Shown here one piece after another: positions 3,154-22,297 of a stretch of 64,000 nucleotides of DNA. The notes under the pieces are model-generated. The model saw nothing but the letters and a program-made list of their open reading frames with translations, was not told where the DNA came from and did no database searches. The stretch's first letter is position 1. Each line of letters begins with the position of its first letter. The stretch lies in contig CALUPO010000001.1 of NCBI GenBank assembly GCA_944322675.1, positions 1-64,000 of the forward strand. Reading direction: 5' to 3'. The stretch is from Candidatus Gastranaerophilales bacterium. GTDB lineage: Bacteria > Cyanobacteriota > Vampirovibrionia > Gastranaerophilales > Gastranaerophilaceae. Position numbers and translations under genes: made by a program.

Positions 3154-3166
3154 TATTCACCTCTTG

Positions 3167-3574
3167 TTATGCAAGTTTCAATTGTTCATTCATATCCTTA
3201 ATGTTGTCTAAATATACAAATGATTGAGGAGGAACAAAATCTTTTTTAATTTCATAAGGGTTTATAGGAGACTCTAATTCATAGAAATCCTTTATTTCAA
3301 TCGCATATCCTTCTTCTTTTCCCTCAAAATATTTAAAGAACTCCTTTTTGTTAATACCTGCAACTTGTTTAGTGTGCTTCCATAAATTTTCAGGAGAATC
3401 TTTTATAATATCAGAAACAATAATTTTACCTACAATCCTTTTTGTTGGAGCAGATTCATATACCCATATTTCATCTGTAAATTGTTTGAATATTTGTTTT
3501 CTAAATTCAAATAACTTACTTCTTTTCCGTATCTCTTCCACATATTTTGGCTTAATGGACAGTAAAACGCTCAT
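3167..3574 (-). CDS. Small ASCH/PUA-like domain protein
   Basis: The 135-residue protein is a single ASCH-type domain: the N-terminal SIKPKYVEEIRKRSKLFEFRK fits the ligand-binding loop of the fold, and IWVYESAPTKRIVGKIIVSD fits the central strands. ASCH and related PUA/EVE domains bind RNA or modified nucleotides. It starts inside the last 23 bases of the PIN-GNAT gene with a GAGGAAATATAG ribosome site, which indicates translational coupling, and it precedes the methylase. By context it may act as a base-modification sensor or accessory subunit of the operon; that role is inferred. Such proteins are also annotated as stand-alone predicted transcriptional regulators. Confidence 0.75.
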   Translation of the reverse strand: MSVLLSIKPKYVEEIRKRSKLFEFRKQIFKQFTDEIWVYESAPTKRIVGKIIVSDIIKDSPENLWKHTKQVAGINKKEFFKYFEGKEEGYAIEIKDFYELESPINPYEIKKDFVPPQSFVYLDNIKDMNEQLKLA

Positions 3575-5081: not shown

Positions 5082-5082
5082 C

Positions 5083-8000
5083 TTACTCCTTATTCGCGTA
5101 TACAAGTTCAGATAATATAATCTCTCTTTTGCTTGAGTCTCTTAATTTTTTATTTTGCATATCTTGATTCAAATATGATTCTGGAACGATATTTTTAATC
5201 CCTACTAATATCTTTATAAAATCACCATCTGTAGAATTCCAAAAATCTGATAATTTCTTTGCGATAGCTTCTGGAATTAGTCTTGTTCCAAAAGCATTAA
5301 TAAGCGATTGAATAAAGGCTTTTTCTTCAGATGTATATTTAGGATAGTTCAATAAACCTTTCAAATTTCTTACGATTACATCCATTTTGGATCGACCTTT
5401 ACGAGTCATTAAAGGCTCTGTTTCAATAGGTTTACCGAAAATAGCCTTATTTTTAGTTATATAGTCAAAATAAACATTTGATAATCTTTTCTTAGGTTCA
5501 TTTTCTTCGCATTCAAAATACTGTATTGCTTCATCAAACGGAATTTCTTTAGATCCAATACCGTCTGTAATGCAAAATTTTCTTAACTTTCCTTTCCTAA
5601 AGAATGTTACCAATGAATCTGTGGAAATTCTTTCATGTTCACGAGCAACTCTTATTTTCTTAGGAAGTTCAACTATTTTTACATACAAATCTGTTTTATT
5701 ATCTCGTATTTCGCGAATAAGTTTTAAATACTTCAATTCTAGACTTTCTTCCTTATCTTCGAAAGCATCTGTGGAATTAATTGTATTGTAGTATTTTTCT
5801 CCACGAAGATTGAAGGATTCAACCTCTTCCACTTCGCTTAAATATTTTGCATCTTCACCTAATGCATTATGAAAAGCTTGTATTTTTGAAATAATATTTG
5901 CTTTAAGTCCTAGTTCTTTATCGGTTTCTGATGTCGGAAAGAAGTTAAATATGTAAATTTTATTATGCTTTGTTCCAACACGATTAACACGACCGACCCT
6001 CTGCAAAACTCTTGTAGGATTCCAAGGTAAGTCATAATTAATTATAATGTTTGATCTATGCAAATTAATCCCCTCAGACAAAACATCCGTAGTAATTAAA
6101 TATCTTAAATCATCAAGTTGGTAAGCCTCTTTTTGGTTTGGATCATAGTTATATTTAATAACATCTTTTAAATCATCACTTTTTGCTGATGAGTAAAAAA
6201 GAACTTTATCACCATAAACTTTTCTCAGTACTTCTGATAGATTTTCTCCTGTTTCTGATGATTCTGTAAATATAACAATTTTCTTGTCTTTTAATAGTAT
6301 ATTATTATTTAATTCAGACAAGAATTTTTCTTGTTTGTAATCATGTTGAATTGCTTGCCAGTCTTGCAATAATTCTTTCAAGAGATCTAAGTCTCGGGTT
6401 AAATCTAGTACGAAATCACTACTAAATTCAGATATAGGGAATTCCTCTAGGTCTTTACCTTTTCCTTTTTCAAGCAAATCGTCAATTGATTTTACATCAT
6501 CATCAATATAGTCCAAAACATTAATATATTTACTTATATATACCATTCCATTATTTATCATCGAAAGCATTTTTTCATGAGATTTAATTGAACGTTCTAA
6601 TGTTTTCTGAAAGGCATATTTTGAACTTTCAAGTCTTTTTACCAATCTGCTTTTCATAAAGCCGACATTATTTATCTGTTGTTGATTTTCAAATGCTGAT
6701 AAATGCTTATTTTTCAAATATGTTTTGGGAGCATATCTTGCATAGGATAAACGTTTTTCTTTAGGAGTGCCTTTTGTTCCAATAATTCTTATTGTCTTTT
6801 CAAAAATATCATTTGTATGTTTATCAAACTCATAGATAATTTCTTGTGGGGCTTGAACATCCGGAAAAAACAGTCCTTGTTTTTTCATATCTGATTCAAA
6901 ATATTTTTTAATATCAGTTCTAGTTCTTCTAATCATAAGATAGGCAAGAATTTTATCCCTTACTTCTTTTGATACTCTTTTTACAGCATTTATATACTTA
7001 GGATCATCTTTTGTTCCACATTCTTTTTCTACTTGTTTAATTTTACCCCTTCTGTTGGCAAAAAAGGCTTCTAAGTTGGGTAAACCAGGAATATCACTAT
7101 CTACTGGATTTTGGAATAGTGAAATTAAATAATAGAAATCAAAAAATGTGTTGTTAAGAGGAGTCGCACTAATAAGTATAATCTTCTTATTTCTGCAAAT
7201 CCTTTTGAGAAGTTCATATTGTGCGTTGTTACCATTTCTAAATCTATGAGCTTCGTCTACAAATACATAATCATATGACCTCTCGCCAAGTTTTTCACTT
7301 CTTTCAACTTTTTGTTCAATTTTAGGCAACAAACCGATTGATTCAATATCATAATTTTTGCTTTTTATATTGAAATCTTTAAATGCACCCTGCCAATTTG
7401 TTATAACTGGAGGCGGAGCAATAACAAGAATCTTTTTACTTTCAAGAGTTTTGGCAAACATTGCCGCAATATATGTTTTTCCTAGTCCAACAACATCTGA
7501 AATAAATGCACCACCATACTCATTAACTATTTTATTAATCTTAGCAATTGCACTGATTTGGTAATCCAGTTTCATGTAATTTTCTGGCAAGTCTTCAACG
7601 TCAAAAACCTGTTCCATATTTATCTCATCATAGAAATATTCATACAGAAATTTTAAATATATTTCATACGGAGTTATACTCTCATTCAACCACGTTTTTG
7701 TTTCAATGGCATTTATGTATTCTTCGCTAATAGGAACAGCCGTTTCCCATAATTCTTCAAACTTTTCTAGGGCATATTCCACATCGTCATCATCTCTCAA
7801 TTCAACATTAAATTCATATTGCGTATTCAATCCATTTTCGGTGAAATTACTTGAACCAGTGACTACTGAACCTAATATTGGAATCTCATCTTGATTGTAT
7901 CTTGTAATATACACCTTTGCATGTATGTTTTGATCTCTGCAAGCTTTCATTTCAATTTTTCCGTTGGCTAACATTTCTCTAAATTTACTTACACCAATGG

Positions 8001-8337
8001 TAACATCTTCAGTATCATCTGAATTTTCAAATTCAGATTTAACTTCTTGTACAAAGTGCTTTTTAATACTTGCTTGACTTTCAAAATCTAACTTTTGCTG
8101 TCCAATATCATGTAAAATATCAAAAGTTTGCCTATCAACATTCAACCCAACCAAAATTCGGATTTTTTCAACATTTTCAAGAGATTTGTACAAACGATAA
8201 AAGCCGCTTGTTCTAAAGTAACCGACCAAAGAATCGAAATACTGAGCATGTTTTAAAGTTTGATTAAACCTTTCATAAAGCCCCACACCATCCTTGTTTG
8301 TATAAAACTTAGTATTTCGTCTTCTAGCTTCTGCCAT
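5083..8337 (-). CDS. PLD-like nuclease domain plus SNF2-family helicase
   Basis: The 1,084-residue protein has an N-terminal phospholipase-D-like domain (about 20-215) with a single HKD-type motif, IHAKVYI followed by GSSNFTENG. An SF2/SNF2 ATPase follows: motif I DVVGLGKT, motif II VDEAH, motif III ISATPLNN, then the C-terminal lobe with VIFTESSETGENLSEVL, TTDVLSEGINLH and LQRVGRVNRVG (motifs V and VI). About 250 more C-terminal residues are of unknown type. PLD-helicase fusions of this kind are common beside DNA methylases in defence loci such as DISARM-like systems, where they are thought to translocate on and cleave foreign DNA. This is the first gene of the minus-strand operon, and the ATG is in a divergent 117-bp spacer shared with the DinD-like gene. 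The domain assignment is confident; the system type is not settled. Confidence 0.9.
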   Translation of the reverse strand: MAEARRRNTKFYTNKDGVGLYERFNQTLKHAQYFDSLVGYFRTSGFYRLYKSLENVEKIRILVGLNVDRQTFDILHDIGQQKLDFESQASIKKHFVQEVKSEFENSDDTEDVTIGVSKFREMLANGKIEMKACRDQNIHAKVYITRYNQDEIPILGSVVTGSSNFTENGLNTQYEFNVELRDDDDVEYALEKFEELWETAVPISEEYINAIETKTWLNESITPYEIYLKFLYEYFYDEINMEQVFDVEDLPENYMKLDYQISAIAKINKIVNEYGGAFISDVVGLGKTYIAAMFAKTLESKKILVIAPPPVITNWQGAFKDFNIKSKNYDIESIGLLPKIEQKVERSEKLGERSYDYVFVDEAHRFRNGNNAQYELLKRICRNKKIILISATPLNNTFFDFYYLISLFQNPVDSDIPGLPNLEAFFANRRGKIKQVEKECGTKDDPKYINAVKRVSKEVRDKILAYLMIRRTRTDIKKYFESDMKKQGLFFPDVQAPQEIIYEFDKHTNDIFEKTIRIIGTKGTPKEKRLSYARYAPKTYLKNKHLSAFENQQQINNVGFMKSRLVKRLESSKYAFQKTLERSIKSHEKMLSMINNGMVYISKYINVLDYIDDDVKSIDDLLEKGKGKDLEEFPISEFSSDFVLDLTRDLDLLKELLQDWQAIQHDYKQEKFLSELNNNILLKDKKIVIFTESSETGENLSEVLRKVYGDKVLFYSSAKSDDLKDVIKYNYDPNQKEAYQLDDLRYLITTDVLSEGINLHRSNIIINYDLPWNPTRVLQRVGRVNRVGTKHNKIYIFNFFPTSETDKELGLKANIISKIQAFHNALGEDAKYLSEVEEVESFNLRGEKYYNTINSTDAFEDKEESLELKYLKLIREIRDNKTDLYVKIVELPKKIRVAREHERISTDSLVTFFRKGKLRKFCITDGIGSKEIPFDEAIQYFECEENEPKKRLSNVYFDYITKNKAIFGKPIETEPLMTRKGRSKMDVIVRNLKGLLNYPKYTSEEKAFIQSLINAFGTRLIPEAIAKKLSDFWNSTDGDFIKILVGIKNIVPESYLNQDMQNKKLRDSSKREIILSELVYANKE

Positions 8338-10179: not shown

Positions 10180-10339
10180 TTAATTATATGAATTAAGTTT
10201 ACTAAGTGCATCTAATTTTGCTCCTTGTGTGCAATGCACATATCGCATTGTAGTCTTTATATCTGAATGTGCTAAAATTTCTTTTATAACATTTACTGGT
10301 ACGTTCTCTTTGGCTAATCTTGTACCTACTGTAGTTTTT
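10180..10339 (-). pseudogene. 3' remnant of a tyrosine recombinase (phage/ICE-type integrase)
   Basis: Reading the minus strand gives TVGTRLAKENVPVNVIKEIL followed by AHSDIKTTMRYVH and a short tail ending in TAA at 10180-10182. This is the C-terminal end of an integrase with the late catalytic histidine (AHSD) and the tyrosine (RYVH) preserved. Recognisable sequence stops at about 10,336, just where the candidate left end of the transposon begins. The rest of the integrase is not found on the other side of the transposon. It is too short and too truncated to work, and probably marks an older integrative element in this island. Confidence 0.75.
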
Positions 10340-10353
10340 TGTCCAGGTTGATT
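10340..10353 (+). repeat. Candidate left terminal inverted repeat of the transposon
   Basis: TGTCCAGGTTGATT pairs with the inverted right end at 16344-16360. It starts with the TG dinucleotide expected of Mu/Tn7-family ends and lies directly at the point where the integrase reading frame loses homology. Two related sequences with TGTAC and AGATAGATT follow at 10354-10371 and 10466-10479 and could be inner transposase sites. Confidence 0.45.
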
Positions 10354-10732
10354 TGTACGGCTAGATAGATTATTTTGGTAAAGTTGGCTTTGTGTGGGCG
10401 TTTTCGGGTCGGAAAAATTAAGTGTTCCAAAAAAATCAAACTGGGAAACTGGACTTTTTCTGGACTGTACAGATAGATTGAAATTTGTATATTATCAGTG
10501 AGATACGTGTAAAGAAACAGGACAATACAGAAAAAGGGAACTTGCCTCAAAGCCCCTCTGTGTAAAGGGATTTTAGAATTATTTAGGGTTACAGAAAAGT
10601 CCGGTATGTCCGATTTGTGGGACTACTATACTCACAAAAATATAAAAAGTGGAAGATAATATGCCAATAGCCTTATTTCTGTAAGGTAATACCCGATAAC
10701 AAACATAGGACTTTTGCCGTCAAAAAGTAACA

Positions 10733-10807
10733 CGAGTTCCGTAAAAAATATTTTTCTGCCACTAAACGGAACCTTAACGGAACTTTTTTAAGGAACCAAA
10801 CGGAACC
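10733..10807. repeat. AACGGAACC iteron cluster downstream of the Mor-like gene
   Basis: AAACGGAACC occurs at 10764-10773 and 10798-10807, with a variant AACGGAAC at 10776-10783, a half-site GGAACC at 10792-10797 and an inverted GTTCCG just before 10741. Together with the matching cluster at 11148-11183 these flank the Mor-like gene. They are likely protein-binding sites, either for the Mor-like regulator or for the transposase at the left end. Confidence 0.6.
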
Positions 10808-10809
10808 TG

Positions 10810-11121
10810 TTATTTAGACTTTTTCTTCCCCTCAACATGCTCTTTAATAACTTTATAAACATACCTAGTAGTTGTCTCACATGCCAAGGCTAATCTATTT
10901 ACACTCGTTGCATCAAGGTAATTGTCAATAATATACTGCTTTTTATATTGTTGATTACAGTGAGCATGGATTGAAAACTTTTCTCCTGCCGCATTGAACA
11001 TTAATTTTTTAGTCGCCTCTAAGCCAATAATAGAGCAGAGATATTTTAAATCTTCTGTCGGCAAATTATCTTCAGTTATGTATTTTGACCATACAGGTTC
11101 TGTTTCGGAATTTCTAACCAT
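10810..11121 (-). CDS. Mor-like transcriptional regulator of the Mu-type element
   Basis: The 103-residue protein fits the Mor/C family of Mu middle/late-gene activators: NLPTEDLKYLCSIIGLEATK corresponds to the dimerisation region, and NRLALACETTTRYVYKVIKE is the C-terminal helix-turn-helix. It is divergent from the transposase and flanked on both sides by AACGGAACC repeats that are good candidate operators. In Mu, Mor activates transcription; here it may control the transposition operon or its own gene. The family call rests on motif shape and context. Confidence 0.65.
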   Translation of the reverse strand: MVRNSETEPVWSKYITEDNLPTEDLKYLCSIIGLEATKKLMFNAAGEKFSIHAHCNQQYKKQYIIDNYLDATSVNRLALACETTTRYVYKVIKEHVEGKKKSK

Positions 11122-11147
11122 ATCACACCTTTTCTTAATTATAGTAC

Positions 11148-11183
11148 AAACGGAACCTTTAAAGGTTCCGCTTAGTTCCGTTT
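11148..11183. promoter_or_regulatory. AACGGAACC palindromic operator cluster upstream of the Mor-like gene
   Basis: A direct AAACGGAACC at 11148-11157 is followed by GGTTCCG and AGTTCCGTTT in inverted orientation. AACGGAACC TTTAAAGGTTCCG forms a near-perfect inverted repeat centred on TTTAAA. It lies 27 bp upstream of the Mor-like start codon, where an autoregulatory operator would be expected. Confidence 0.55.
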
Positions 11184-11284
11184 GAAAATTTTTCTTAATA
11201 CATCAAATATTTTGTTTTTTCAATATCACTTAAACAGTGATTTTTGAATATTGAAAAGAGCAAAAAGGATATGTTTCGATAGGA

Positions 11285-11439
11285 GCATACAGAAGAATCC
11301 AAAAATTGACAAATTTTTGAGGTTTTTCTGTATGCGACCTAAGGTGTGTGAACCTCAGGTCGTGTGCGGGATAGCACACAACCTGAGGTGAAACCGTTCC
11401 AGGGTGTTTGCGAGAAAAATTCTAATTTTTCCGCAAACA
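11285..11439 (+). promoter_or_regulatory. Structured leader with alternative hairpins before the transposase gene
   Basis: Several strong inverted repeats lie in series. GCATACAGAA (11285-11294) pairs with TTCTGTATGC (11326-11335), enclosing a second stem CAAAAATT/AATTTTTG. ACCTNAGGT occurs three times (11337-11345, 11352-11360, 11381-11389). The first and second copies can form one stem (CGACCTAAGGT with ACCTCAGGTCG). The second and third form a longer 16-bp stem (11352-11367 with 11374-11389, one mismatch). The two stems exclude each other. A fourth stem, GTGTTTGCG to CGCAAACAC, lies at 11403-11439. This resembles an attenuator or an array of protein sites. It ends 62 bp before the transposase ATG. 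Confidence 0.55.
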
Positions 11440-11501
11440 CATAAAGATACATTGACTACACTTTTGAGGAAAGCAGAGTTAATGTGTGAGAGGAGATAAT
11501 C

Positions 11502-13442
11502 ATGCAAAACTCAAATATAGACTGGATTACGACAAAAGAACTTGCAAAAATAAAAGGTATATCGGAAAGAGCTGTTCGTAAAGCCATCAGTAAAAACAAA
11601 TACGTAATCAGAAAATGCTCAAAATCTTACGAAATTTTAGTAACATCTTTAGAAGAAAATGTTAGAGAAAAAGTAACAACCGTCAAAGAAAAATCTGCTT
11701 TAACAGTCCCGATATCGTATGTTGTTCCTGAAACACAAAAGAAATTGGCTCTTGCAAAATACGATTTAATCAAAAAATGGGATGAATTTAGAACCGGTAA
11801 GAAAAATAAAACAATTGCCGGAAAAGATTTCCTTGAAGCATATAATCATAATTGTATTTGCGAAGAGTTATTCAATGTCGTAGATAAAGTTGCTATAGGA
11901 ACAATTTATGAATGGCACAAAAAACTCCGTACCTACAACGATGATTGGCATTGTTTGATTAACAATTATACCTTTGGCGAAAAAACTAAAAAATCCGCAA
12001 TGTCGGCGGAAGAAGAAGCTGAATTACTTAAAAATTTATTACATCCTAATCAATTAAATATCGGCAAAGCAATTAAATTAACCAAACTTGCATTAAAAGA
12101 GCGTGGATTTGAAAATTTATGCTGTGATTTAACATACAGGAGATTTGCAAATAATTACAAAAATGAGCATTATAACACCTGGATAGAGGCAAGGGAAGGA
12201 AATAAAGCTCTGCATGACAAGGTTTTACCATATATAACAAGAGATGTTTCCAAACTTGAAGTAGGGGATGTTATTGTCGGTGACGGACACAGATTATCAT
12301 TTTTCATTAAACATCCTTATACCGGAAAACCTGTCAGACCAATGATGGTTGCTTATCAGGATTGGAAATCCGGCGGATTTGTCGGATTTGAAATAATGCT
12401 GGAAGAAAACACTCAGTGTATTGCAAGTGCATTAAGAAATTCAATAATAAATTTAGGCAAAGTACCGAAGTTTGTTTATCAGGATAACGGCAAAGCATTT
12501 AAAGCAAAATATTTTATTGAAAACGGATTAAGCGGTTTATTTACGAATCTCTGGATTCAGCCTGTATATGCAAAGCCGTATAATGCAAAGGCTAAACCTA
12601 TTGAAAAGTTATTTAGAGAATTACAGGACAGCTGTGAAGTATTGCTTCCTTCATATTCAGGAACGAGTATTATCAAAAAGCCGGCAAAGCTAAAACGAAA
12701 CGAGAAATTGCATAAAGCACTTTATAAGGTCAATGTCCCGTCTCTTGAACAGGTGACAAATTTTATTAAAAATTGGCTCATAAAATATCATTACGAGCAG
12801 CCCTGCCCGCACATAAAAGGAAAAACAATAGGCGAAATCCTTGAAAGCGGTAAAGGTGAAGGTGTTAATTTGGAAACATTAGATGACCTAATGATGGCTC
12901 GTGAGATAAAGAAAATTTATAGAAACGGTATTTTATTCTTAAAAAGCAATTATTATGATGAAGCCTTATTCGGATACAAAAAAGAAGTCATTATCAAATA
13001 TAGCCTGTTCAACTTAAGTTCAATCAAGGTTTATAAATTGAACGGAGAGTTTTTGTGTGAAGCAAAAAGAGTTGAGTCCATTCATCCTCTGGCAAATTAT
13101 CTGGGTGAAGCCAAGGACATTGAAGATCTTAAGCAAAGAACAAAAATTAAAAAGCAATTAGAAAAAAGAACCGAACAGGAATATATAAATCAAATAAAAC
13201 GAAATCAAGTTCATACACCTTTATTAACAATGGATTTGATTGAAAAGCAAAATGATGATGAATTAAATCAATTCAGGCTTGAAATAAAACAAGAGAAGAA
13301 TAACGAAAATTTTAGCGGTTGTTTTCAAACAAGGTTTGAAAAGTATGAATATCTTCTAAATAAAGAAACTCTCTCTAAAAAAGAACAGGATTGGATTTCA
13401 GAATATAAACTAACCGATGAATATGAACAAATATATGGCTGA
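11502..13442 (+). CDS. MuA/TnsB-type DDE transposase
   Basis: The 646-residue protein begins with a MerR/Mu-type winged helix (WITTKELAKIKGISERAVRK, residues 8-27). The central RNase-H-fold integrase core shows the DDE triad: aspartate in VIVGDGHRLSF, aspartate in FVYQDNGKAF and glutamate in AKAKPIEKLFRELQD. The following beta-barrel region (about 460-530) and the charged C-terminal tail match Mu-transposase C domains; in Mu that tail contacts MuB. AGAGGAGATAATC precedes the ATG. It is the first gene of the transposition operon, and its end overlaps upstream in-frame starts of the ATPase gene. The catalytic residues look intact, so the enzyme may be active. Confidence 0.92.
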   Translation: MQNSNIDWITTKELAKIKGISERAVRKAISKNKYVIRKCSKSYEILVTSLEENVREKVTTVKEKSALTVPISYVVPETQKKLALAKYDLIKKWDEFRTGKKNKTIAGKDFLEAYNHNCICEELFNVVDKVAIGTIYEWHKKLRTYNDDWHCLINNYTFGEKTKKSAMSAEEEAELLKNLLHPNQLNIGKAIKLTKLALKERGFENLCCDLTYRRFANNYKNEHYNTWIEAREGNKALHDKVLPYITRDVSKLEVGDVIVGDGHRLSFFIKHPYTGKPVRPMMVAYQDWKSGGFVGFEIMLEENTQCIASALRNSIINLGKVPKFVYQDNGKAFKAKYFIENGLSGLFTNLWIQPVYAKPYNAKAKPIEKLFRELQDSCEVLLPSYSGTSIIKKPAKLKRNEKLHKALYKVNVPSLEQVTNFIKNWLIKYHYEQPCPHIKGKTIGEILESGKGEGVNLETLDDLMMAREIKKIYRNGILFLKSNYYDEALFGYKKEVIIKYSLFNLSSIKVYKLNGEFLCEAKRVESIHPLANYLGEAKDIEDLKQRTKIKKQLEKRTEQEYINQIKRNQVHTPLLTMDLIEKQNDDELNQFRLEIKQEKNNENFSGCFQTRFEKYEYLLNKETLSKKEQDWISEYKLTDEYEQIYG

Positions 13443-13455
13443 TAAGGAGGTTTTG

Positions 13456-14145
13456 ATGCACAAATTATTTGTAAAAACTCGTAATGTCAAAAACTTCATA
13501 GGATTAATGAATAACTTAATAGATAAATCCAATGAAGTGCCTAAGATGGGATTAATTTACGGAGACCCGGGATTAGGTAAAACTCAAACCGCAGTATGGT
13601 GGGCGACAAACAATGATGCAGTCTATGTAAGAGCTCAAAATAAAATGACTTGCAGATGGTTATTAGAAAAAATCGTTTATGAATTAGGCGAATCACCCTC
13701 AAGAAAAATGGCGGATCTTGTAGAACAATGTATCACTCATTTAAGATTAAAACCGCAAATCATAATCATTGATGAAGTGGATTATCTTATTAACCGTCAC
13801 AGAATTGTTGAAACCTTAAGAGATTTACACGACTTAACAGGAGTTCCGATAGTATTAATCGGAATGCAGGAAGCAAAAACAAAACTCGGTAAATATAGAC
13901 ATCTATATGATAGAATTTCCGAGATTATCGAATTTAAACCTTTTTCTAAAGACGACCTGGACGTTATTGTTGAAGAATTATCCGAAATTAAAATAACCGA
14001 TGAAGGCAAAGAAATATTTTTTGAAAAAACAAATCGTTTTAGACAGGTAATTAAAGGGATTTCTCTGTTGGAGAATTTAGCCCAAACAAACGGATTAAAC
14101 AAAATAGATGTAAAACAGGTGAAAGGACTAACAATTGAAAAATAA
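13456..14145 (+). CDS. MuB/TnsC-type AAA+ transposition ATPase
   Basis: Walker A GDPGLGKTQTAVWWA (about residues 36-50) and Walker B IIIIDEVDYL identify an AAA+ ATPase of the MuB/TnsC group, which forms filaments on DNA, chooses the target and stimulates the transposase. I choose the ATG at 13456 because AAGGAGG lies just before it. An in-frame ATG at 13417 would overlap the transposase gene and lacks such a site. At 229 residues it is short compared with Tn7 TnsC and nearer MuB. Its stop overlaps the TTG start of the next gene. Confidence 0.88.
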   Translation: MHKLFVKTRNVKNFIGLMNNLIDKSNEVPKMGLIYGDPGLGKTQTAVWWATNNDAVYVRAQNKMTCRWLLEKIVYELGESPSRKMADLVEQCITHLRLKPQIIIIDEVDYLINRHRIVETLRDLHDLTGVPIVLIGMQEAKTKLGKYRHLYDRISEIIEFKPFSKDDLDVIVEELSEIKITDEGKEIFFEKTNRFRQVIKGISLLENLAQTNGLNKIDVKQVKGLTIEK

Positions 14146-14977
14146 GGATTTAATAATAAAACTAGCAAGAAGATTAGACAAATTCAGCCTTGATGAAATC
14201 ATTACGCTATCAGAGCTTCAAGAACAGGAAGTGAAAGATATATTATCTGATTTATTAAAAACTCAGGTAATTATAAAAAACAATGATACATATTTTTTTA
14301 ATCCCAAAAAGATTTCCAAAACAAATAATTATACTCCCCCTGTCATTAGTAGTTTTAAACCAATCATTATTGAAGAAGAAGATGGATATGAAGAACTTCT
14401 AAAATTTGGTGAAGAAACCCAAAACAAAGTAAAAAGATATGCAGAATTATTGAATTTTGTTCATCAAGCAGGAACGAAAAACTTAAGACAGGTTGTTGAC
14501 TTATTTAACGAAACCTCTGGCTATAAAAAGATTCCATATCCTACATTTACTAGAATTCTCAGTAATTATAACAAATACGGCTTCAGAGGAATATTACCAA
14601 ATTATCATAATTGTTCAGAAAACTCTATACCTGATGAAATATATACTTGTTTCAAAAAATATTACCTGACAAAAGAAAAATTATCCGCATCAGAAGCCTT
14701 ATACAGAACTCAAAAGCAACTGCAATCCGAACAAAAAATAGAGCAACCTTATGCCTATAATGCTAATGCATTTTTAAGAAAGATAAAAACTGAATTTACC
14801 AAAGAACAGATTAAATATTTTAGAAATAATATAACCCCGCCAAAGGTCAAAATATACTCGACGAAAGCTGATGAACCTCTTAATATGGAGTTTAAAAAGG
14901 CGGCAAATATTTATTTAACCCGTCTGCGTCTGGAAAACAAACTGGAAAGGTTTATGCATGAAAAAAACAGATTATAA
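14135..14977 (+). CDS. Winged-helix/Mu-type DNA-binding protein, first half of a possible frameshift fusion
   Basis: Residues 1-55 (SLDEIITLSELQEQEVKDIL) look like a winged helix. Residues about 105-225 (PYPTFTRILSNYNKYGFRGI and following) have the layout of the Mu-transposase end-binding region. The last 30 residues (FKKAANIYLTRLRLENKLER) look like the start of an integrase core-binding domain, whose remainder is at the start of the next ORF. TTG at 14135 is the likely start, with AAAGGA seven bases before it. The gene overlaps the following ORF by 20 bp at an A7 run. Either this is a separate protein coupled to the next, or the two are one polypeptide of about 555 residues made by slippage. 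Its job is probably DNA recognition. Confidence 0.65.
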   Translation: MKNKDLIIKLARRLDKFSLDEIITLSELQEQEVKDILSDLLKTQVIIKNNDTYFFNPKKISKTNNYTPPVISSFKPIIIEEEDGYEELLKFGEETQNKVKRYAELLNFVHQAGTKNLRQVVDLFNETSGYKKIPYPTFTRILSNYNKYGFRGILPNYHNCSENSIPDEIYTCFKKYYLTKEKLSASEALYRTQKQLQSEQKIEQPYAYNANAFLRKIKTEFTKEQIKYFRNNITPPKVKIYSTKADEPLNMEFKKAANIYLTRLRLENKLERFMHEKNRL

Positions 14978-15803
14978 AAATCATTTACAAGCACATTTTG
15001 ACAATTTAACCATAAGAGAAATAACAACCCGGACAGTTTCAAAATACAAACAATATATGTTTGACAACGGATTTCAGCTGGCATCTGTCAATATGTATAT
15101 TGCATTACTAAAAAGAATCATAAGAGCAGTCTGCCCTAAAACAAATAGCCTTGTTACAAGAGGCGATAAAATTATTCAAAATGCCTATGCCCTTGATATG
15201 AATATTTTATCAGAAGATGAAATAGCCTACTTATTGCAGATTTGTCAATTAAAATACCCTGCTGCATACCCTGTTTTATATCTTTCACTATCAACAGGTG
15301 CAAGTGTGCCGGAGTTATTAGGATTAACCTGGGATAGGATAAATTTTGAGGATAACACAATATTTTTGAAATATTTTCTTTATGAACGACGCCTTGTTGT
15401 AAACAAAGGTGGAACTGCCGCAAGAACACTTAAGATTGATAATAAAATATCAGACATTTTGCAAAAGAAATTAAAAAAGACAAACCCTACACCCGGCGAT
15501 TTTGTTTTTAAATTCAATTCTCCAAAATCTTCTCAGCAGTATTTTGAAAGAGTTGTTTTAAGAGGTTTATCCATACAACTTGGAATTCAAAGACTATTCC
15601 CGAGTGACTTGCAGCATAATTTTGCCAATTTATGTCTGAAACAAAATATTCCTGTTACATTTATCCAAAAATCATTAGGTTATTACAGTTTAGCCAATTT
15701 CGTTAAAATATACAAAAATCTAATAGAAAATCAGGAAAAAGAATATTATAACCCGCTTTATGAAATTTATAATAAAACAGGACTTGAAAATGCTGAAAAA
15801 TGA
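14958..15803 (+). CDS. Catalytically degenerate tyrosine-recombinase-fold protein
   Basis: The fold is recognisable: a helical core-binding segment (IREITTRTVSKYKQYMFDNG), then a catalytic-domain-like region. The signature residues are changed. The arginine box reads STGASVPELLGLTW instead of TGxRxxE. The HxxR box reads PSDLQHNF, so histidine and arginine are both missing. The late histidine is LGYYSL instead of LGHxS. Only the tyrosine (KIYKNL) remains. The protein should therefore bind DNA without cutting it. This matches the reported TnsF target selectors of Tn6022-like transposons, which carry an inactivated tyrosine-recombinase domain and sit with tnsB and tnsC. The ATG at 14958 lies within the A-rich overlap with the preceding ORF. 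The fold call is confident; the targeting role is inferred. Confidence 0.8.
   Translation: MKKTDYKNHLQAHFDNLTIREITTRTVSKYKQYMFDNGFQLASVNMYIALLKRIIRAVCPKTNSLVTRGDKIIQNAYALDMNILSEDEIAYLLQICQLKYPAAYPVLYLSLSTGASVPELLGLTWDRINFEDNTIFLKYFLYERRLVVNKGGTAARTLKIDNKISDILQKKLKKTNPTPGDFVFKFNSPKSSQQYFERVVLRGLSIQLGIQRLFPSDLQHNFANLCLKQNIPVTFIQKSLGYYSLANFVKIYKNLIENQEKEYYNPLYEIYNKTGLENAEK
14961..14967 (+). other. A7 slippage run joining the two overlapping transposon ORFs
   Basis: A run of seven A lies in the 20-bp overlap. Loss of a single A (or a +1 shift) converts the frame ...FMHEK into TDYKNHLQAHF without a gap, restoring a complete core-binding domain. Transcriptional slippage on A runs of this kind is known from bacterial IS elements. 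A fixed one-base mutation or a sequencing error would look the same. Confidence 0.45.
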
Positions 15804-15835
15804 GTTATCTTGTGTATGCCGGAGGTACTCAGAAT

Positions 15836-16264
15836 ATGAAAAAACACGTTTTAGCAGAAACTGCCGCAAAACTTTATACTGAAAAATTTATGACATTAGA
15901 AAGTATAGCAAAACAATTAAATGTGAATGAAAGAACTCTTCGCCGTTGGAAATCTGTCGATAATTGGGAAAATAAACGGCTTGAATACATAAAATCAAAA
16001 ACAACTTTCCATGAAGATTTATATAATTTTGGCAGAACCCTCTTAGAAGCAATCAGAGCAGATATATCAAACGGGAAAAGGGTTGAATCATCAAAGTTGC
16101 ATACAGTAACTAAAATTATGACGTTGCTTAAAAACGTAAAAACATATGAGGATAAAGTTTTAAACGATAAACACATCCCGAAAAAAGCAAACCATCGAGA
16201 AATATCTCCTGAAACCATCAGAGAAATTGAAGAAAAGATTTTGGGTATAACTTACGAAGAATAA
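15836..16264 (+). CDS. Small HTH protein, terminase-small-subunit/DUF1804-like
   Basis: Residues 10-45 (FMTLESIAKQLNVNERTLRR followed by WKSVDNWENKR) form a helix-turn-helix of the kind found in phage terminase small subunits and DUF1804 proteins. The remaining 95 residues are helical and charged, without a known motif. I choose the ATG at 15836 because GGAGG lies 10 bases upstream; the in-frame ATG at 15800 overlaps the previous gene. As the last gene before the right end it is probably an accessory DNA-binding protein of the transposon rather than a packaging protein, since no phage structural genes are present. Confidence 0.65.
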   Translation: MKKHVLAETAAKLYTEKFMTLESIAKQLNVNERTLRRWKSVDNWENKRLEYIKSKTTFHEDLYNFGRTLLEAIRADISNGKRVESSKLHTVTKIMTLLKNVKTYEDKVLNDKHIPKKANHREISPETIREIEEKILGITYEE

Positions 16265-16343
16265 CTTTCCGGAATTGCCGTTTTAAAGCCTTAAATACTT
16301 TTGATGAGAATTTTTATTATATGAGTCATACATAACCCGCCTT

Positions 16344-16360
16344 AATCAACCGGTTGAACA
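16344..16360 (-). repeat. Candidate right terminal inverted repeat of the transposon
   Basis: On the minus strand this reads TGTTCAACCGGTTGATT, matching the left end with one substitution and a three-base insertion. Its core CAACCGGTTG is itself a perfect palindrome, so part of the match could be coincidental. It sits 20 bp from the stop of the DUF1016 gene and is followed by a T run like that at the left end. Confidence 0.4.
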
Positions 16361-16379
16361 CTTTTTGAACGGGGTTTGT

Positions 16380-17387
16380 TTAGTCTTGTTTAGTCAATAA
16401 TTTTATATTTTCCTTAGCAATCATATCCGCAAGTTCTTCTTCAGTAGGGAGGACTGTTTTATACTTGCTTGCAAAAATCTGCTGACTTTCCTGCAACACA
16501 GAATATTTGACCATAGTTTCGGACTTATCTGTGCACAAAATTATACCGATTGTTGGATTGTCGTCCGCACCACGCTTTAGTTCATCAAACATGCGGACAT
16601 ACATATCCATTTGCCCAATATCTGCGTGGGATAATTTTGTTGTCTTTAAATCTATCACAACAAAGCATTTGATCAGGTAATTATAAAACACCAAATCAGC
16701 ATAAAAATGATCGGTTTCGGTGCTAATTCTGAATTGGCGGGCAACAAAAGAAAATCCTTTGCCTAATTCTAACAAAAATTTCTGTAAATTAGTGATTAAA
16801 GCCGATTCTAATGTACTTTCTTTGCCTTCAATGTTTTCAGGCAAATCCAAAAATTCCAAAACATACGGATCTTTAATGAATGCTTTAGTGTTAATTACAG
16901 CCGGCAGACATTTTTCTGTGTTACTTCCCCCTTCTTGAGTTGATAAAAGTCTATGATAATAACCGCTTTTGATATTGCGTTCAAGTTGGCGCGATGTCCA
17001 ATTCTGCTCCGCGGCCTCTTTTAAATAATAATCTCTTTCCTGCTTGTTATCTATTCTGATAATTGTTCTAATATTTGTCCATGATAAATTTGCTACGCAC
17101 TGCGTGTCGAATTCGGGATATGTAAGATAGAACTGACGCATGTTCTTTAAATTTGCTTCCGAAAAACCTTTACCGAAAGTATCCGTCAGGTATCTTGATA
17201 AATTTTCAATAAGCTTAGTTCCATATTCTGCACGGGAAGCACCACCCTGCTCTTCTTCTACAATACGCTGTCCGATTTTCCAGTATGTTTCAACCATAAT
17301 GGAATTTACTGTATGATACGCTTTCGCCCGTGCAATATTAAGTAACTCCGCTATATCACTATATATTTTAGAAACTTCGTTTGACAT
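16380..17387 (-). CDS. DUF1016 (YhcG-type) PD-(D/E)xK nuclease-domain protein
   Basis: The N-terminal half (VNSIMVETYWKIGQRIVEEE and SEANLKNMRQFYLTYPEF) matches the DUF1016 N-terminal domain. The C-terminal half contains the nuclease core, with HFYADLVFYN providing the first aspartate and CFVVIDLKTTKL the D-x-K pair. At 335 residues it is of normal family length and appears intact. These proteins are frequent in restriction-modification and mobile-element islands; their exact role is unsettled. It follows the reverse transcriptase by 41 bp on the same strand with GAGG before its ATG, so the two may share a transcript. Its stop lies 20 bp from the transposon right end. Confidence 0.9.
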   Translation of the reverse strand: MSNEVSKIYSDIAELLNIARAKAYHTVNSIMVETYWKIGQRIVEEEQGGASRAEYGTKLIENLSRYLTDTFGKGFSEANLKNMRQFYLTYPEFDTQCVANLSWTNIRTIIRIDNKQERDYYLKEAAEQNWTSRQLERNIKSGYYHRLLSTQEGGSNTEKCLPAVINTKAFIKDPYVLEFLDLPENIEGKESTLESALITNLQKFLLELGKGFSFVARQFRISTETDHFYADLVFYNYLIKCFVVIDLKTTKLSHADIGQMDMYVRMFDELKRGADDNPTIGIILCTDKSETMVKYSVLQESQQIFASKYKTVLPTEEELADMIAKENIKLLTKQD

Positions 17388-17428
17388 AATAACCTCTGAA
17401 CACCTTTATTTTAGCACAAATATTTTTA

Positions 17429-18718
17429 TTACATAAAACTTTTATATGTGTTCAAGATTTCTTTATCAGCTTGCTCTATAAGTTTGTTTAATCTTTTTTG
17501 ATGATTATTTATTTGTTGTTTTATTACAGATGTATTAAATACAGTATCAAAAGTTCTATAAGCATATGATATAAAATTACGTTTTCCAAGATGGGTATAT
17601 TGTTCATATAAATGGTGACGATATAATTTTTTCTGCTTATTTTGTATTGGTATTTTTTGTTTATGCATATTGGTAAGTTTCTTTATTGCATTGAATTTCA
17701 TAGCAATAACCGCTCGTTTTGACTTCCGTAAATATCGAGCTAAACTACCTTCTCTAATCCTTACTTTTTCTCCATCGAAATAAAACCCTAAATACTGAAG
17801 AGGATGTTGCTTAATTTGGATAGCATTTGTAAAATCATAGCATTGACTTTTTGAATAATTATCCCATTCTTCAATAGGATGAATTTCTAGATTTTCACCT
17901 CGTTCGTTAATATATTCTTTAATTTTAGCAATAATTTGTCCTTTTATTTTTTTATCAGGTGGACAAATAAACATTATGTCATCACAATAGCGTCTATACA
18001 TACCACCAACATTATCTGCAAGATTTTTCATGGCAAAATCGAAAGGTATCATGTAAATATTAGATAGAAGTGCAGACATTGCTGAACCTTGAGGTATACC
18101 ATGTGGTTTAGTAGCATAAAAGCCTTCGTTTTTATGAAATTTTTTATGTTCGGTATCCTTGTAAAAGTCTTTGTACCAATCCTTAAATCTTCTGAAATTT
18201 TCTGCGTTTTTGAATAAAATTTTAGGAATTTTATTATATATTTTTTTGTTACATCTTGCACAATCAGATGGTGTACAAGGTTTCTTTTTATCTTTATTTA
18301 CATAGTAACAAACTTCCTTTAAATCTATATAACAGTACTTTGTTAACGACCTAAATATATTTAAATGATCACTTGGTAATTTATCAACGTCAAGCACCTT
18401 TGCCCATTCCTTATAAAGATTTTGGTGATCTATATAATCATAAAAACTATGAATATCAAAAGCTAAGGCATAACAGTTATTTTCACGTTTCTTTATTTCT
18501 TCAAAAACTTCTCTTGCCATAGTACAATTATTGGGACTAATCTCAGTGTTGTTAATTATTACAGGCGGAAGCTTTCTATAAGCCAAAACGACATTACTTA
18601 AGCCTAGCTCTTGAATTCTTTTTTCATACTTTTCATTTAGTAAACTAGCATAATGTGTGTAAATATATCCATCAATATGTGCTGCATATCTAATCGGACG
18701 TTTTTTTATAATGCCTTT
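17429..18718 (-). pseudogene. DRT/UG-like antiphage reverse transcriptase, main part downstream of an amber codon
   Basis: Reverse-transcriptase motifs are clear: motif A FDIHSFYDYID, motif B HGIPQGSAMSALLSNIY and motif C YRRYCDDIMFI with the catalytic YCDD. Conserved RT sequence (KKRPIRYAAHIDGYIYTHYA) lies upstream of the first usual start codon (TTG at 18586) and directly after a TAG at 18719-18721. The real protein therefore includes the preceding fragment, about 565 residues in all. The IPQGSAxSALLSN form and the long N-terminal part resemble the abortive-infection/UG (defence-associated RT) group rather than retrons, group II introns or DGRs. I cannot name the DRT type. With the amber codon read as stop, motif-bearing sequence could still be translated only from an internal start. 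Confidence 0.8.
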
Positions 18719-19117
18719 CTATTTTAAGCTCTCTAACGTGTTGAGACACTTGTTTTTCTCTTCTCCTGATAATTCAAATAGTTTCTTTTCATAGTATTTA
18801 ATCTTATTTATTGTATTTGAACGCCTTTCTTCTATATCAAATGCTATGAAAGGGTAAAATGCGTGTTTTGCAATTTCTTCAGGCGAATTTAAAAATAAGT
18901 GTAATGAATCTATTTGTTGTTTAATTTTCTTTTGAGAGGCAGGTGTTATTAAAAATTTAGTTTTAGCGGATGATTTATCCTTAGTTATGAATCTACTGAA
19001 AGAAAAAGGTCTATCAAAGTGAGCAAAACTTTTCAGATTAAATGTTGGGATTTCTTTCTGAACTTGTTGGATTATTTTTATTTTTTCTTGCTTATAATTA
19101 TTTTGTTTTTTAGACAT
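18719..19117 (-). pseudogene. N-terminal part of the same reverse transcriptase, ending in TAG
   Basis: This 132-residue frame is in the same phase as the RT body. Its C-terminal part (SPEEIAKHAFYPFIAFDIEE) is the segment usually found before the RT domain in Abi/UG-type enzymes. I take the ATG at 19117, with AAAGGAA five bases upstream, rather than an in-frame start 93 bp upstream that would cover the hairpin. The single TAG after LESLK is the only break. CAG to TAG would explain it; amber readthrough is an alternative. There is no frameshift, so decay, if any, is recent. Confidence 0.75.
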
Positions 19118-19134
19118 ATAGTTCCTTTTAGCAC

Positions 19135-19174
19135 GGAAGACACTCGGATTCGTTCGTCCATAAGAGTGTCTTCC
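19135..19174 (-). ncRNA. Strong hairpin upstream of the RT gene, candidate RT-associated RNA
   Basis: An 11-bp perfect stem (GGAAGACACTC at 19135-19145 with GAGTGTCTTCC at 19164-19174) encloses an 18-base loop and ends 18 bp before the RT start. A smaller GTCC-GTAA-GGAC hairpin follows at about 19184-19195. Several DRT systems use a structured RNA encoded next to the RT as template, often upstream. Here there is only structure and position to go on; a transcriptional or translational control role is equally possible. Confidence 0.4.
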
Positions 19175-19319
19175 CAAACTTAAGTCCGTAAGGACAATTT
19201 CTTTGACCATTCAGATTGGTTTTAACCTTCTTGTAGTTTTTAAAACCTCAAATCCCTGTCAGCAACGAGTTTATACTCTATGTTATAATGATAAATATAA
19301 CCTTAGGAGGAATATTCTT

Positions 19320-19472
19320 ATGATGTTAATGCAAACTCTAATTCAGAACCTGCTGGTATATCACCATTCAATCCCTAACCTTCTTGTAAAGATAATGCCT
19401 TACATTATACTTTACATAGTTTATTTATTCCCCACCTGTCTAATCAGTAATACTAACCAACAAATGGCATGA
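19320..19472 (+). CDS. Possible 50-residue hydrophobic peptide
   Basis: AGGAGG lies nine bases before tandem ATG codons at 19320, a better ribosome site than most genes here, and TATAAT occurs at 19284-19289 with no clear -35. The peptide is hydrophobic, with a likely membrane helix in its middle (KIMPYIILYIVYLFPTCLIS). It is divergent from the reverse transcriptase. It could be a small toxin-like membrane peptide or a degraded gene: a neighbouring frame reads NANSNSEPAGISPFNP before a stop. I cannot assign a function. Confidence 0.35.
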   Translation: MMLMQTLIQNLLVYHHSIPNLLVKIMPYIILYIVYLFPTCLISNTNQQMA

Positions 19473-19512
19473 TAATAATACTGCAAACTTAGTGAATTTA
19501 TAAAGAATTTAA

Positions 19513-21495
19513 TTATTTTTTAATATTTGAATCTGGAGTTAAACCTTTTCTTCTCATAAAGAGTATTCTATCCAACAAATCACTATCGTAAAATCGTTCT
19601 TTGTTTTTACTCCAATTTTTAAAATTTGATATAAGTTCTGTATCTGTACAACTTAAATTATTGTTTAAACGATTTTTCCAAACGGCATAAAGCGTTGCTA
19701 TAGCTTCACAGAAATCTGAATTCTTACCTCTAAATAATTCCAATAAATTATTTATTTCTACTGCTTCCGCGCTGAAGACCTTGCTAAATATATCAGTAAT
19801 TTCATTATTTTTTTCAAGTGGAGTATATTTTGTAACTTCAATATTACCTTTTTGTTCTTTATTAACATCAAACCATTTTTTATTCTTTAGTATACCCTCA
19901 ATTTCATATCGTGACTGTGCATCATATGGTCCGGCTGCTTCTTTTTTATACTTGCCATCTAGAGTAACACCAAGATGGGTTTCACAAAGATATAGAATTT
20001 TTTCTAATTTTACAGCCCCAAAATACTTTTCTTCATACAGTTCATTAATAATTTTGGCACTCAAGATAGCTCTTTTTAGCTTTAAATCAATAATTTTATT
20101 TGAACTTGCTTTTGGGGCAAAACATTTTTGTATTACTGATTGAAATAATTCAGAAGATAATTTCTGTACAATATTGTTTTCTTTTTCTAATTCCTCGCAT
20201 ATTTTCATTAGTTCATCGACTTTGGCGACAATTCGTTTTTGTTCTGCTAGTGGTGGAATGGGTACATAAATCTCTCTAATTGTATCCATGGACAAACTTG
20301 GTTGTGCCGTCGCTTTTAAAAATTTAAAAATTTCCTTTTTACCTGTTTTTGACAATAAATAATACATTATGTATTTATTATCAATATTTTCATATTTATT
20401 ATATATTTCTATTTTTGCAACATTTGGTGCTAAGTGAAATCTTTTATTCATATTAAATATTGCAATATCTCCAATACCTGCTCCAATAAAGGTCATTAAT
20501 AAACATTCCTTATTTAAGGAACTTCTTTCAAGGAGAGTAGATGTATCTGAATTAATATATTTTAAATTTGTTAAATCTAATTTTGCAGATTTAACATTTT
20601 GAGCTCGAATAACTGGAACATCACCTTTGTCTGTAAGTCTCATATATTTTGTGTATTCAAAGCCAGCTAATTTCGTTACAAAAGATATATTTCTTATTTT
20701 TACCCATTGCCAATTATATGGAATTGAATATGGGATTTGTTCCGTAATATTTTTTAATACGTTTCCTATTTTTTCATAATACTTTCCGTTGTCATGTTTT
20801 AAAATTTGATAATCTTTTTTATCTCTTTTTAATTTTTTATCTTTTATTAAATCTTCTTTTTCAGCTTTAATACGTTTTAAAAGTTCTGAAGCCGGTTCAT
20901 CATTTGGATTTTGTGAAACTAATTTACCCTGAATAGCGTCTTGCAATATTGCTTGACGAAGTTTTGAAATGTATTTAGCCTGATTTTTTATCTCTTGTTT
21001 TAAATCGTTTTGTATTTTTATAAATTTATTTATATCTTTTAAGGCTTCTTCTTGTTGTTGATATGATAAATCAGGAAAATCTATTTTTTCTAAATCATTA
21101 AAACGTAGTGCTGAACGGACACCACCTCTATTCCCATACCATTTTATTAGATTAATACCCAAGGAGCTTTTTAAATAAAGTAACAAAAATTCAGGATGTA
21201 TGTCATTCTTTACTTTAAAAACAATATAAGCAGGACTAACGATTCCTTTAAAACTATCATCAGCTAATCCTATTGAGCCGACATTTATTCTATATGGGTT
21301 ATAAACAAAAGTTTTACCAGATACAACAGTATAATTTGAAGTATCATCACTAATGTCTTTACCTGTTATTACTATTCCATTTTTATTTGTAACACCATAT
21401 ACCTGAAGATTTTCATCTTCAAAGTTTTTATATTTATAAGTAACTTTTATTAAAGAATTTTTTAATTTTCGAGTAGGAAATGATAATTTTAGCAT
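19513..21495 (-). CDS. hsdS: Type I restriction enzyme specificity subunit with extra C-terminal domain
   Basis: Two target-recognition domains are visible (about 1-150 and 245-420). Each is followed by a helical spacer; the first contains KLRQAILQDAIQGKLV and the second PIPPLAEQKRIVAKVDELM, both standard HsdS signatures. Residues about 470-660 form an additional domain (KRAILSAKIINELYEEKYFG, later ETHLGVTLDGKYKKEAAGPY) seen in a subset of longer HsdS proteins. The first domain starts abruptly, as is usual. HsdS chooses the DNA sequence for the HsdM/HsdR complex. It overlaps the hsdM stop by one base. Without full hsdM and with no hsdR in the window, it cannot form a complete system from this locus alone. 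Confidence 0.92.
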   Translation of the reverse strand: MLKLSFPTRKLKNSLIKVTYKYKNFEDENLQVYGVTNKNGIVITGKDISDDTSNYTVVSGKTFVYNPYRINVGSIGLADDSFKGIVSPAYIVFKVKNDIHPEFLLLYLKSSLGINLIKWYGNRGGVRSALRFNDLEKIDFPDLSYQQQEEALKDINKFIKIQNDLKQEIKNQAKYISKLRQAILQDAIQGKLVSQNPNDEPASELLKRIKAEKEDLIKDKKLKRDKKDYQILKHDNGKYYEKIGNVLKNITEQIPYSIPYNWQWVKIRNISFVTKLAGFEYTKYMRLTDKGDVPVIRAQNVKSAKLDLTNLKYINSDTSTLLERSSLNKECLLMTFIGAGIGDIAIFNMNKRFHLAPNVAKIEIYNKYENIDNKYIMYYLLSKTGKKEIFKFLKATAQPSLSMDTIREIYVPIPPLAEQKRIVAKVDELMKICEELEKENNIVQKLSSELFQSVIQKCFAPKASSNKIIDLKLKRAILSAKIINELYEEKYFGAVKLEKILYLCETHLGVTLDGKYKKEAAGPYDAQSRYEIEGILKNKKWFDVNKEQKGNIEVTKYTPLEKNNEITDIFSKVFSAEAVEINNLLELFRGKNSDFCEAIATLYAVWKNRLNNNLSCTDTELISNFKNWSKNKERFYDSDLLDRILFMRRKGLTPDSNIKK

Positions 21496-22127
21496 TATAT
21501 TAGTTTCCTCATTTTTTCAAAAAGTTCTTGAGTTTTATTTAGGCTTGCTGATAATTTTTCTAAAATTATTTCAGGAGCAAAAATGTCATCCTCTATAGAA
21601 ATATTTGGATTTTTTATATCTAAATTGTAGTTTGCATTTTTTATATCATCAACGCATACGTTCCAAGCATATTCATTTTCTACTCTATTATTCCACCATT
21701 TCTTTTCTGGTAAAAATTCTTCTATTGTTATTGGGTTTGAACGAGAATAATTTTTTATACCATCTGGTAATGGGTGTTCATAGTACCAAATTTCTCTAGT
21801 AGGCTCACCTTTTTTAAAGAATAGAAGGTTTGTTTTTATGCCGGTATATGGATTAAATACTCCATTTGGTAAACGAATTATTGTATGCAAATTGCATTCT
21901 TGTAGTAACTCTTCTTTAATTCTTGTTTTTACACCTTCACCAAATAGTGAGCCATCCGGTAATACAACACCTGCACGTCCTTGTGGTTTTAACATTTTCA
22001 TTATGTAAACTAAAAATAAGTCAGCTGTTTCACGAGTTCTATAAGTTGCCGGAAAATTATTTTCAATCCCATCTTCTTCAATCCCCTCAAGGGAGAGGGG
22101 GTATGAGATTTTAAAAAAAATAAACAA
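21495..22127 (-). pseudogene. hsdM: C-terminal fragment of type I restriction methylase HsdM
   Basis: The fragment starts at the end of the family region that normally reads NPPFGGxEEDGIENNFP; here only GIEEDGIENNF remains. Typical HsdM sequence then continues, with RTRETADLFLVYIMKMLKPQ, GRAGVVLPDGSLFGEG and a helical C-terminus. The SAM-binding motif and the NPPF catalytic motif, together with about 250-300 N-terminal residues, are missing. Homology ends at about 22,085, inside a G/C-rich palindrome (22083-22101), which marks the break. The nominal TTG start at 22127 is probably not used. The gene has been cut by recombination or by an assembly join. Confidence 0.85.
22083..22101. repeat. 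G/C-rich palindrome at the island boundary
   Basis: CCCCTCAAGGGAGAGGGGG is a compact inverted repeat of a composition unlike its surroundings and similar to REP-like intergenic palindromes. It coincides with the truncation point of hsdM and with the change from island genes to conserved single-copy genes. A role as a recombination or insertion scar is inferred. Confidence 0.45.
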
Positions 22128-22297
22128 AATAACCCCGTCTGGAAGACATTAAAATATTTTTAAGTAATTTTTTGAGAAAAATTGTATATAAGCCTATTAT
22201 ATTATATTAATTTTTACACTTTATAAACAAATAGTCAAAATTCATAAAATATGTTAATATAAGTTTGATAGAAATTATATAATGAGGAATAGAAAAA

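Follow-up and report, generated by a model that had tools for sequence, protein, structure and literature searches.

TnsF is an inactivated tyrosine recombinase (YR) that serves as the target selector of Tn6022-like Tn7 transposons and aims them at comM (PMC10293859). It is 498 aa long, with N-terminal zinc fingers, two core-binding (CB) domains and a partial catalytic (CAT) domain without helix K, and it acts via TniQ together with TnsA, TnsB and TnsC (PMC10293859). Homing to tRNA genes has been described for other Tn7-like elements, where it depends on TnsD of the type I-B2 and I-D CAST or on the guide RNAs of the type V-K CAST (PMC11406308). The literature that we searched holds no description of the transposon and selector family reported below, nor of tRNA homing by MuA/MuB elements with an integrase-derived reader.

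An earlier sequence-only reading of the locus gave the TnsF precedent in agreement with its published account (PMC10293859) and assigned a TnsF-like role to a dead recombinase within a MuA/MuB-type transposon. Catalytic losses conserved among relatives and the linkage of their insertions to tRNA and tmRNA genes support such a role, which we infer from insertion-site statistics.

Organization of the transposon

The window, a 64,000-nt stretch of DNA from a Candidatus Gastranaerophilales bacterium, contains a MuA-type transposase and a MuB-type ATPase in tandem, as in a Mu-like transposon. The element and its transposition-related features are the following:

10508..22085 (+): Mu-type transposon with the right terminus lost; its left boundary is common to about 19 elements with different flanks, and on the right hsdM homology ends
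10508..10535 (+): left terminus TGTAAAGAAACAGGACAATACAGAAAAA, from comparison of copies with different flanks
10764..11173 (no strand): repeated AAACGGAACCT motifs flanking the Mor-like gene, 5 matches versus 0.7 expected
10810..11121 (-): Mor-like regulator, 103 aa (phrog_836, E 1.5e-5), present in most relatives
11502..13442 (+): MuA-type DDE transposase, 646 aa (Mu-transpos_C 6e-13, phrog_310 2.6e-91)
13417..14145 (+): MuB/TniB-type AAA+ target-capture ATPase, 242 aa (TniB 5e-11, phrog_296 5.3e-52)
15800..16264 (+): small HTH DNA-binding protein, 154 aa, terminase-small-subunit-like, missing in some relatives

The sharp left end TGTAAAGAAACAGGACA was defined by comparing copies with differing flanks, and the AAACGGAACCT repeats are possible transposase or regulator sites. 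A search of the window with the termini and a weight matrix found no right-end motif. Homology of the window hsdM to the complete element L005 ends at about 22085, and a dispersed host repeat follows (22084-22182 at the truncated right edge), which has several further sites in the same genome. In L002, a right end proposed early on turned out to fall within a coding gene and was discarded. Being truncated on the right, the window copy is probably immobile, and it looks dead because a frame-shifted selector gene and a split reverse transcriptase add to the truncation. A segment of about 160 bp with three strong hairpins (11285-11445) is missing at that place in all close relatives compared, which join position 11284 directly to 11446; it looks like a small inserted element.

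The sequence-only reading had described the partner proteins as a Mu-like set without TnsA or TniQ. The two phrog matches bear out the first part, and the Pfam-scanned genes of the window copy and two complete copies (L039 and L046) include neither TnsA nor TniQ; a whole-genome HMM search for TniQ and TnsA also gave no match, its positive controls being likewise silent. The annotated genes of the same three copies comprise transposition, defence or restriction genes and unknowns, with no head or tail (virion) genes among them.

The left flank of the element is itself composite:

10180..10329 (-): remnant of an ordinary tyrosine integrase gene, C-terminus ...VGTRLAKENVPVNVIKEILAHSDIKTTMRYVH..., from translation
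10330..10507 (+): left end (TGTAGTTTTTTGTCCAG...) of a second Mu-type element, a sibling that harbours the window element as an insertion

The sibling left end interrupts the integrase gene remnant. A 172-bp repeat of it is found at two other sites of the genome, in both cases close behind the 3' end of a tRNA-Met gene; one of these two repeats is followed by its own MuA/MuB. In L138 (oriented with MuB on the plus strand), a group C element (see below) lies at 6221 inside an integrase gene, just behind the HxxR motif and no more than a few codons from the point at which the integrase remnant of the window is broken by the sibling end (10329).

Downstream of the transposition genes, the window copy carries defence-related cargo:

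16380..17387 (-): DUF1016/YhcG PDDEXK nuclease (PDC-S02 candidate defence)
17429..19210 (-): DRT2-type defence reverse transcriptase in two ORFs (17429-18586 and 18719-19210)
19513..21495 (-): type I restriction specificity subunit HsdS
21495..22127 (-): truncated type I methyltransferase HsdM

The split reverse transcriptase is apparently a pseudogene. The cargo of complete copies consists mostly of restriction-modification and other defence genes. A variable cargo slot is also seen between the left end and the Mor-like gene in L003, L005, L039 and L046, holding a protein kinase in L039, a common segment of about 1.2 kb in L003 and L005, and GmrSD in L046. To the left of the window element, at 1549-8337, there is a second defence-like cluster with a type IIG-like methyltransferase, a PDC-M11A/B pair and a PLD/SNF2 helicase.

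The inactivated recombinase is half of a split gene

The third gene of the element, which follows MuA and MuB across all groups, is represented in the window by two overlapping ORFs:

14135..14977 (+): N-terminal half of the selector (280 aa), winged helix and Mu end-binding-like region, fused to the next ORF in relatives (phrog_310, E 5e-4)
14958..15803 (+): C-terminal half of the selector, YR core-binding and dead catalytic domains (Pfam, alignment, XerA/XerD models)

In relatives with 56-97% identity, both form a single frame of 547-556 aa, which rules out two separate genes; the break in the window falls at an A-run at about 14961-14967, whose length differs from that in relatives. The sequence-only reading was therefore right about the dead recombinase part of the selector, although the 281-aa ORF that it took for a complete protein, present in the ORF list at 14958-15803 (+), is half of a fusion of about 550 aa. 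The intact selector has a winged helix, a Mu end-binding-like region, a core-binding domain and a dead catalytic domain, in this order. HTH_Tnp_Mu_2 was found in 7 of the 32 sibling selectors, and Pfam scans of selectors revealed no zinc-finger families, giving winged helix and Mu Igamma-like matches instead.

The recombinase fold of the C-terminal half was confirmed by profile searches against integrase families. Pfam Phage_integrase (PF00589) matches the ORF with an E-value of 1.4e-12 over profile positions 3-168 of 172, nearly the full catalytic domain, XerA/XerD models match its CB and CAT domains at 1e-10 to 1e-15, and a profile of the window-family selectors matches PDB 3nkh at 1.3e-6. 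An AlphaFold model built from five sequences had a pLDDT of 39.5 and carries no weight in this reading.

Catalytic positions were assigned by alignment with YRs of this order whose catalytic residues are intact, and they proved to be unshifted. In the window ORF, TG-x-R is changed to TGAS, with the Arg I position occupied by Ser, HxLRH to SDLQH, with both His II and Arg II gone, and LGH to LGY, with His III replaced by Tyr. The nucleophilic Tyr is thus the sole catalytic residue left, exactly as had been read from the letters alone, and it is the sole one left in nearly all copies of the family too; an active recombinase would have the set R-(K)-HxxR-H/W-Y. Arg I is replaced by Ser or Asn in all window-family copies long enough to be read; HxxR is changed to SxxQ in nearly all readable copies, and LGH to LGY likewise in nearly all, with L042 (LGH kept) and L051 (LGI) as exceptions. 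Since the same replacements recur across the family, the inactivation is old and maintained, and no defect peculiar to the window copy. Among deeper siblings, L054 and L056 have Thr or Ser at Arg I and IxxR instead of HxxR and keep LGH, and other sibling families show catalytic losses at more positions and in other patterns.

Relatives, termini and distribution

The gene order in relatives is the Mor-like gene (in reverse orientation), MuA, MuB, the selector and, often, the 154-aa HTH gene. Five complete copies (L039, L042, L046, L050 and L005) are 14.2-16.6 kb long, have the termini TTTTTCTG..TTAATTAACA or close variants, and are flanked by exact 5-bp target duplications (TTGGA, CTTAT, GTGGG, AAGGA and CCACA).

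Of 383 genomes sampled from the order, 188 contain MuA/MuB elements of this kind, as many as eight in a single genome, and MuB matches at E <= 1e-45 are limited to this order within the sampled phylum. Collections of viral contigs, phages and plasmids contain no full-length selector match; phages and plasmids show integrase-level similarity to the C-terminal half of the selector only.

On a quick MuB tree, the window family and two further groups, B and C, each form one clade, and group C nests among siblings that bear a catalytic domain. The third protein of group B has 167-186 aa and consists of a winged helix and a YR core-binding domain (PF14659 up to 3e-11; CB domain of an integrase, PDB 2kkp, 2e-9), with no catalytic domain, whereas that of group C has 414 aa and no YR domain. 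Profile comparison finds the N-terminal winged helix common to the third proteins across groups; the selectors of the window family and group B align in this N-terminal region only, and the core-binding domain that they share rests on separate Pfam and PDB matches. Third proteins of just 248-255 aa, with a winged helix and a Mu-end-like region and no YR part, occur in L109, L139, L147 and L158, and in L139 this protein is followed by an additional 340-aa ORF.

Insertion sites

The mapping of related elements, which had been proposed as a check of the selector role, gave a non-random pattern 3' of tRNA and tmRNA genes. In the window family, 12 of the 19 mapped insertions lie no more than 400 bp 3' of a tRNA gene. 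Of these 12, eight are close to the tRNA (43, 53, 61, 61, 71, 91, 104 and 109 bp), behind genes for tRNA-Ser (three), tRNA-Met (two), tRNA-Ile, tRNA-Phe and tRNA-Gln, and face it with the left end in six cases and the right end in two. The other four are at 224-380 bp, with a sibling element end intervening in at least three. The remaining seven, the window copy included, have no tRNA on the visible side or sides; two of the complete copies, L042 and L046, have no tRNA with both flanks read.

For group B, 21 of the 24 left ends are located 3' of a tRNA (Ile, Leu, Asp, Lys, Gly, Ser or Arg) or tmRNA gene, mostly at 25-110 bp, a count that rests on left ends partly defined from tRNA-adjacent examples and leaves out L124 and three elements with an upstream tRNA and an uncertain left end (L115, L129 and L132). 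Five of these 24 (L150, L151, L155, L156 and L159) were fetched after the first pass and picked on the MuB match alone, and all five are tRNA-linked. Two group B insertions, both at 203 bp, are preceded at 16-22 bp by a duplicate of the RNA 3' end. In L126 and L111, the 3' ends of tRNA-Lys and tmRNA are duplicated as att-like repeats 16-22 bp ahead of the transposon end, which suggests that the RNA gene was subsequently used by an integrase element as well.

By comparison, 1 of 12 group C insertions is tRNA-linked. Judging by the window genome (37 tRNA genes over the cut-off plus one assumed tmRNA in 2.10 Mb), an insertion would fall no more than 400 bp 3' of a tRNA or tmRNA gene by chance in about 0.7% of cases, so that the enrichment is about 100-fold, with binomial p-values of about 1e-21 for the window family and 2e-42 for group B. 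The Fisher test yields 3e-5 for the window family and group B together versus group C, and 0.003 for the window family alone. The nested position of group C means that its loss of the YR domain coincides with the loss of tRNA linkage, but the lineages behind the correlation with the selector domain are few, because group C also differs from the other two in its MuA/MuB clade. Siblings that bear a catalytic domain are mixed: L067 and L068, both in the window genome, and L112 are behind tRNA-Met, and those of the L108 type have no tRNA nearby.

The selectors of L038 (behind tRNA-Phe) and of L039 and L040 (behind tRNA-Met) are 97-99% identical, which points to a targeting cue common to tRNA genes. 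The 154-aa HTH protein was ruled out as the target setter, since the tRNA-linked L038-L040 and L050 lack its gene. One family is inserted in the left end of a sibling family in L037, L040, L043, L047, L125 and the window (10330-10508); either tRNA sites are being reused, or sibling ends are attractive themselves.

Proposed mechanism and alternatives

The family is widespread in these gut-dwelling relatives of Cyanobacteria, and its dead integrase probably guides it to sites just behind tRNA genes. From the comparison of sequences, we consider it likely that this protein is a target selector that directs a MuA/MuB transposon to positions 3' of tRNA and tmRNA genes; the target evidence is comparative and comes from assemblies, largely metagenomic ones. 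Ordinary integrases have their natural attB region in the 3' part of tRNA and tmRNA genes. The core-binding domain of the selector, with the dead catalytic domain where present, would bind this part, with the T-arm and 3' end as the simplest candidate cue, while the N-terminal winged-helix and Mu-end-like region would touch the transposon end or MuB. The AAA+ protein MuB would then assemble on the downstream DNA, and MuA would insert the element, usually 25-110 bp past the RNA 3' end, with a 5-bp duplication. The order of recruitment, MuB and then MuA, is suggested by analogy with Tn7/TnsC and TnsF.

More tentatively, and with somewhat less than even confidence, a single integrase-derived protein may read a feature shared by tmRNA and every tRNA gene (the T-arm and 3' end, which integrases use as attB) and hand it to a Mu-type transpososome. 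The family would then be an erosion series that starts from a nearly complete integrase lacking only two catalytic positions, passes through a fully dead form and ends in a core-binding domain on its own.

The tRNA linkage could instead come from MuB and MuA, or from features of tRNA loci such as strong terminators, open chromatin or island hot spots, with the dead YR protein binding transposon ends, regulating, or serving target immunity. MuB is the target-capture protein in Mu, many of the insertions here are separated from the tRNA by terminator hairpins, an end-binding role would fit the likeness of the selector's N-terminal half to a Mu end-binding domain, and the window copy, L037, L040, L043 and L047 sit in ends of sibling elements. 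However, group C, with the same MuA/MuB superfamily in the same order, is hardly tRNA-linked, and terminators follow very many protein genes and hence would not single out those of tRNA and tmRNA. Insertions of phage Mu are reported to avoid mature tRNA sequences (PMC7350765), which also counts against a linkage driven by MuB and MuA. We regard this explanation as unlikely.

Far less probable is near-random insertion, with tRNA 3' flanks enriched by selective loss elsewhere or by older tRNA islands acting as safe havens. The 3' ends of tRNA genes are indeed island hot spots, L039 adjoins a serine recombinase gene, the RNA 3' ends next to L126 and L111 are duplicated, and there are several nested copies. 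The tight range of distances (mostly 25-110 bp) and the size of the enrichment nevertheless speak against this reading, as do the persistence of group C elements elsewhere in genomes of the same order and the case of L005, which went into the start of a gene just behind tRNA-Gln and not into an island. Finally, it is hardly credible that the ORF is an integrase relic unrelated to transposition and present by chance: it is dead and frame-shifted in the window, and a true integrase remnant lies nearby at 10180-10329, but about 20 relatives keep one long open frame with fixed catalytic losses and gene order.

If selection by the dead integrase is true, the principle would not be confined to one branch of Tn7: the MuA/MuB branch, a separate one, would use it without TniQ, and a small protein module would carry a broad rule for homing to tRNA genes. 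The erosion series, if true, would make the core-binding domain alone a sufficient and portable tRNA-gene reader that needs neither TniQ nor RNA guides, and the 184-aa reader of group B would be attractive as a module for targeted insertion tools. Delivery of defence cargo to a fixed kind of safe site would help to explain the build-up of defence islands behind tRNA genes.

Comparison with known systems

TnsF and the window-family selector are alike in being inactivated YRs with a multi-domain N-terminus in a DDE transposon with an AAA+ partner, and in both the YR core-binding domain is likely the DNA reader. The selector described here has a winged helix and a Mu-end-like region and a full-length dead CAT domain (or none), its partners are MuA and MuB, and its target is the 3' flank of tRNA and tmRNA genes; no TniQ or TnsA was found with it. 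The zinc fingers, the TniQ partner in a TnsABC operon and the comM insertion of TnsF were not found here, the mapped copies being inserted 3' of tRNA or tmRNA genes or in other places. The published description of TnsF (PMC10293859) thus sets it apart, and the present selector is not TnsF, though the principle is the same. The Tsy elements (PMC10293859) also have a YR-related target selector on a non-Tn7 element, but they are moved by active YRs and target comM, whereas the elements described here have a MuA-type transposase and 5-bp duplications.

With phage Mu and Mu-like transposons, the family shares the MuA-type transposase, the MuB-type ATPase, a Mor-like gene and the 5-bp duplication. 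Mu itself is not very specific in its targets and lacks a dedicated selector, whereas the present elements carry defence cargo and no virion genes among those annotated. The tRNA-targeting CASTs (PMC11406308) resemble the family in using tRNA genes as home and in inserting at a distance from the recognised sequence. These systems rely on TnsD/TniQ or a guide RNA, neither of which was found here, and the spacing in the present family, which varies (25-110 bp when direct), looks looser than the fixed spacing of Tn7. Unlike in the CASTs, the candidate reader is derived from an integrase and appears to accept many tRNAs as well as tmRNA.
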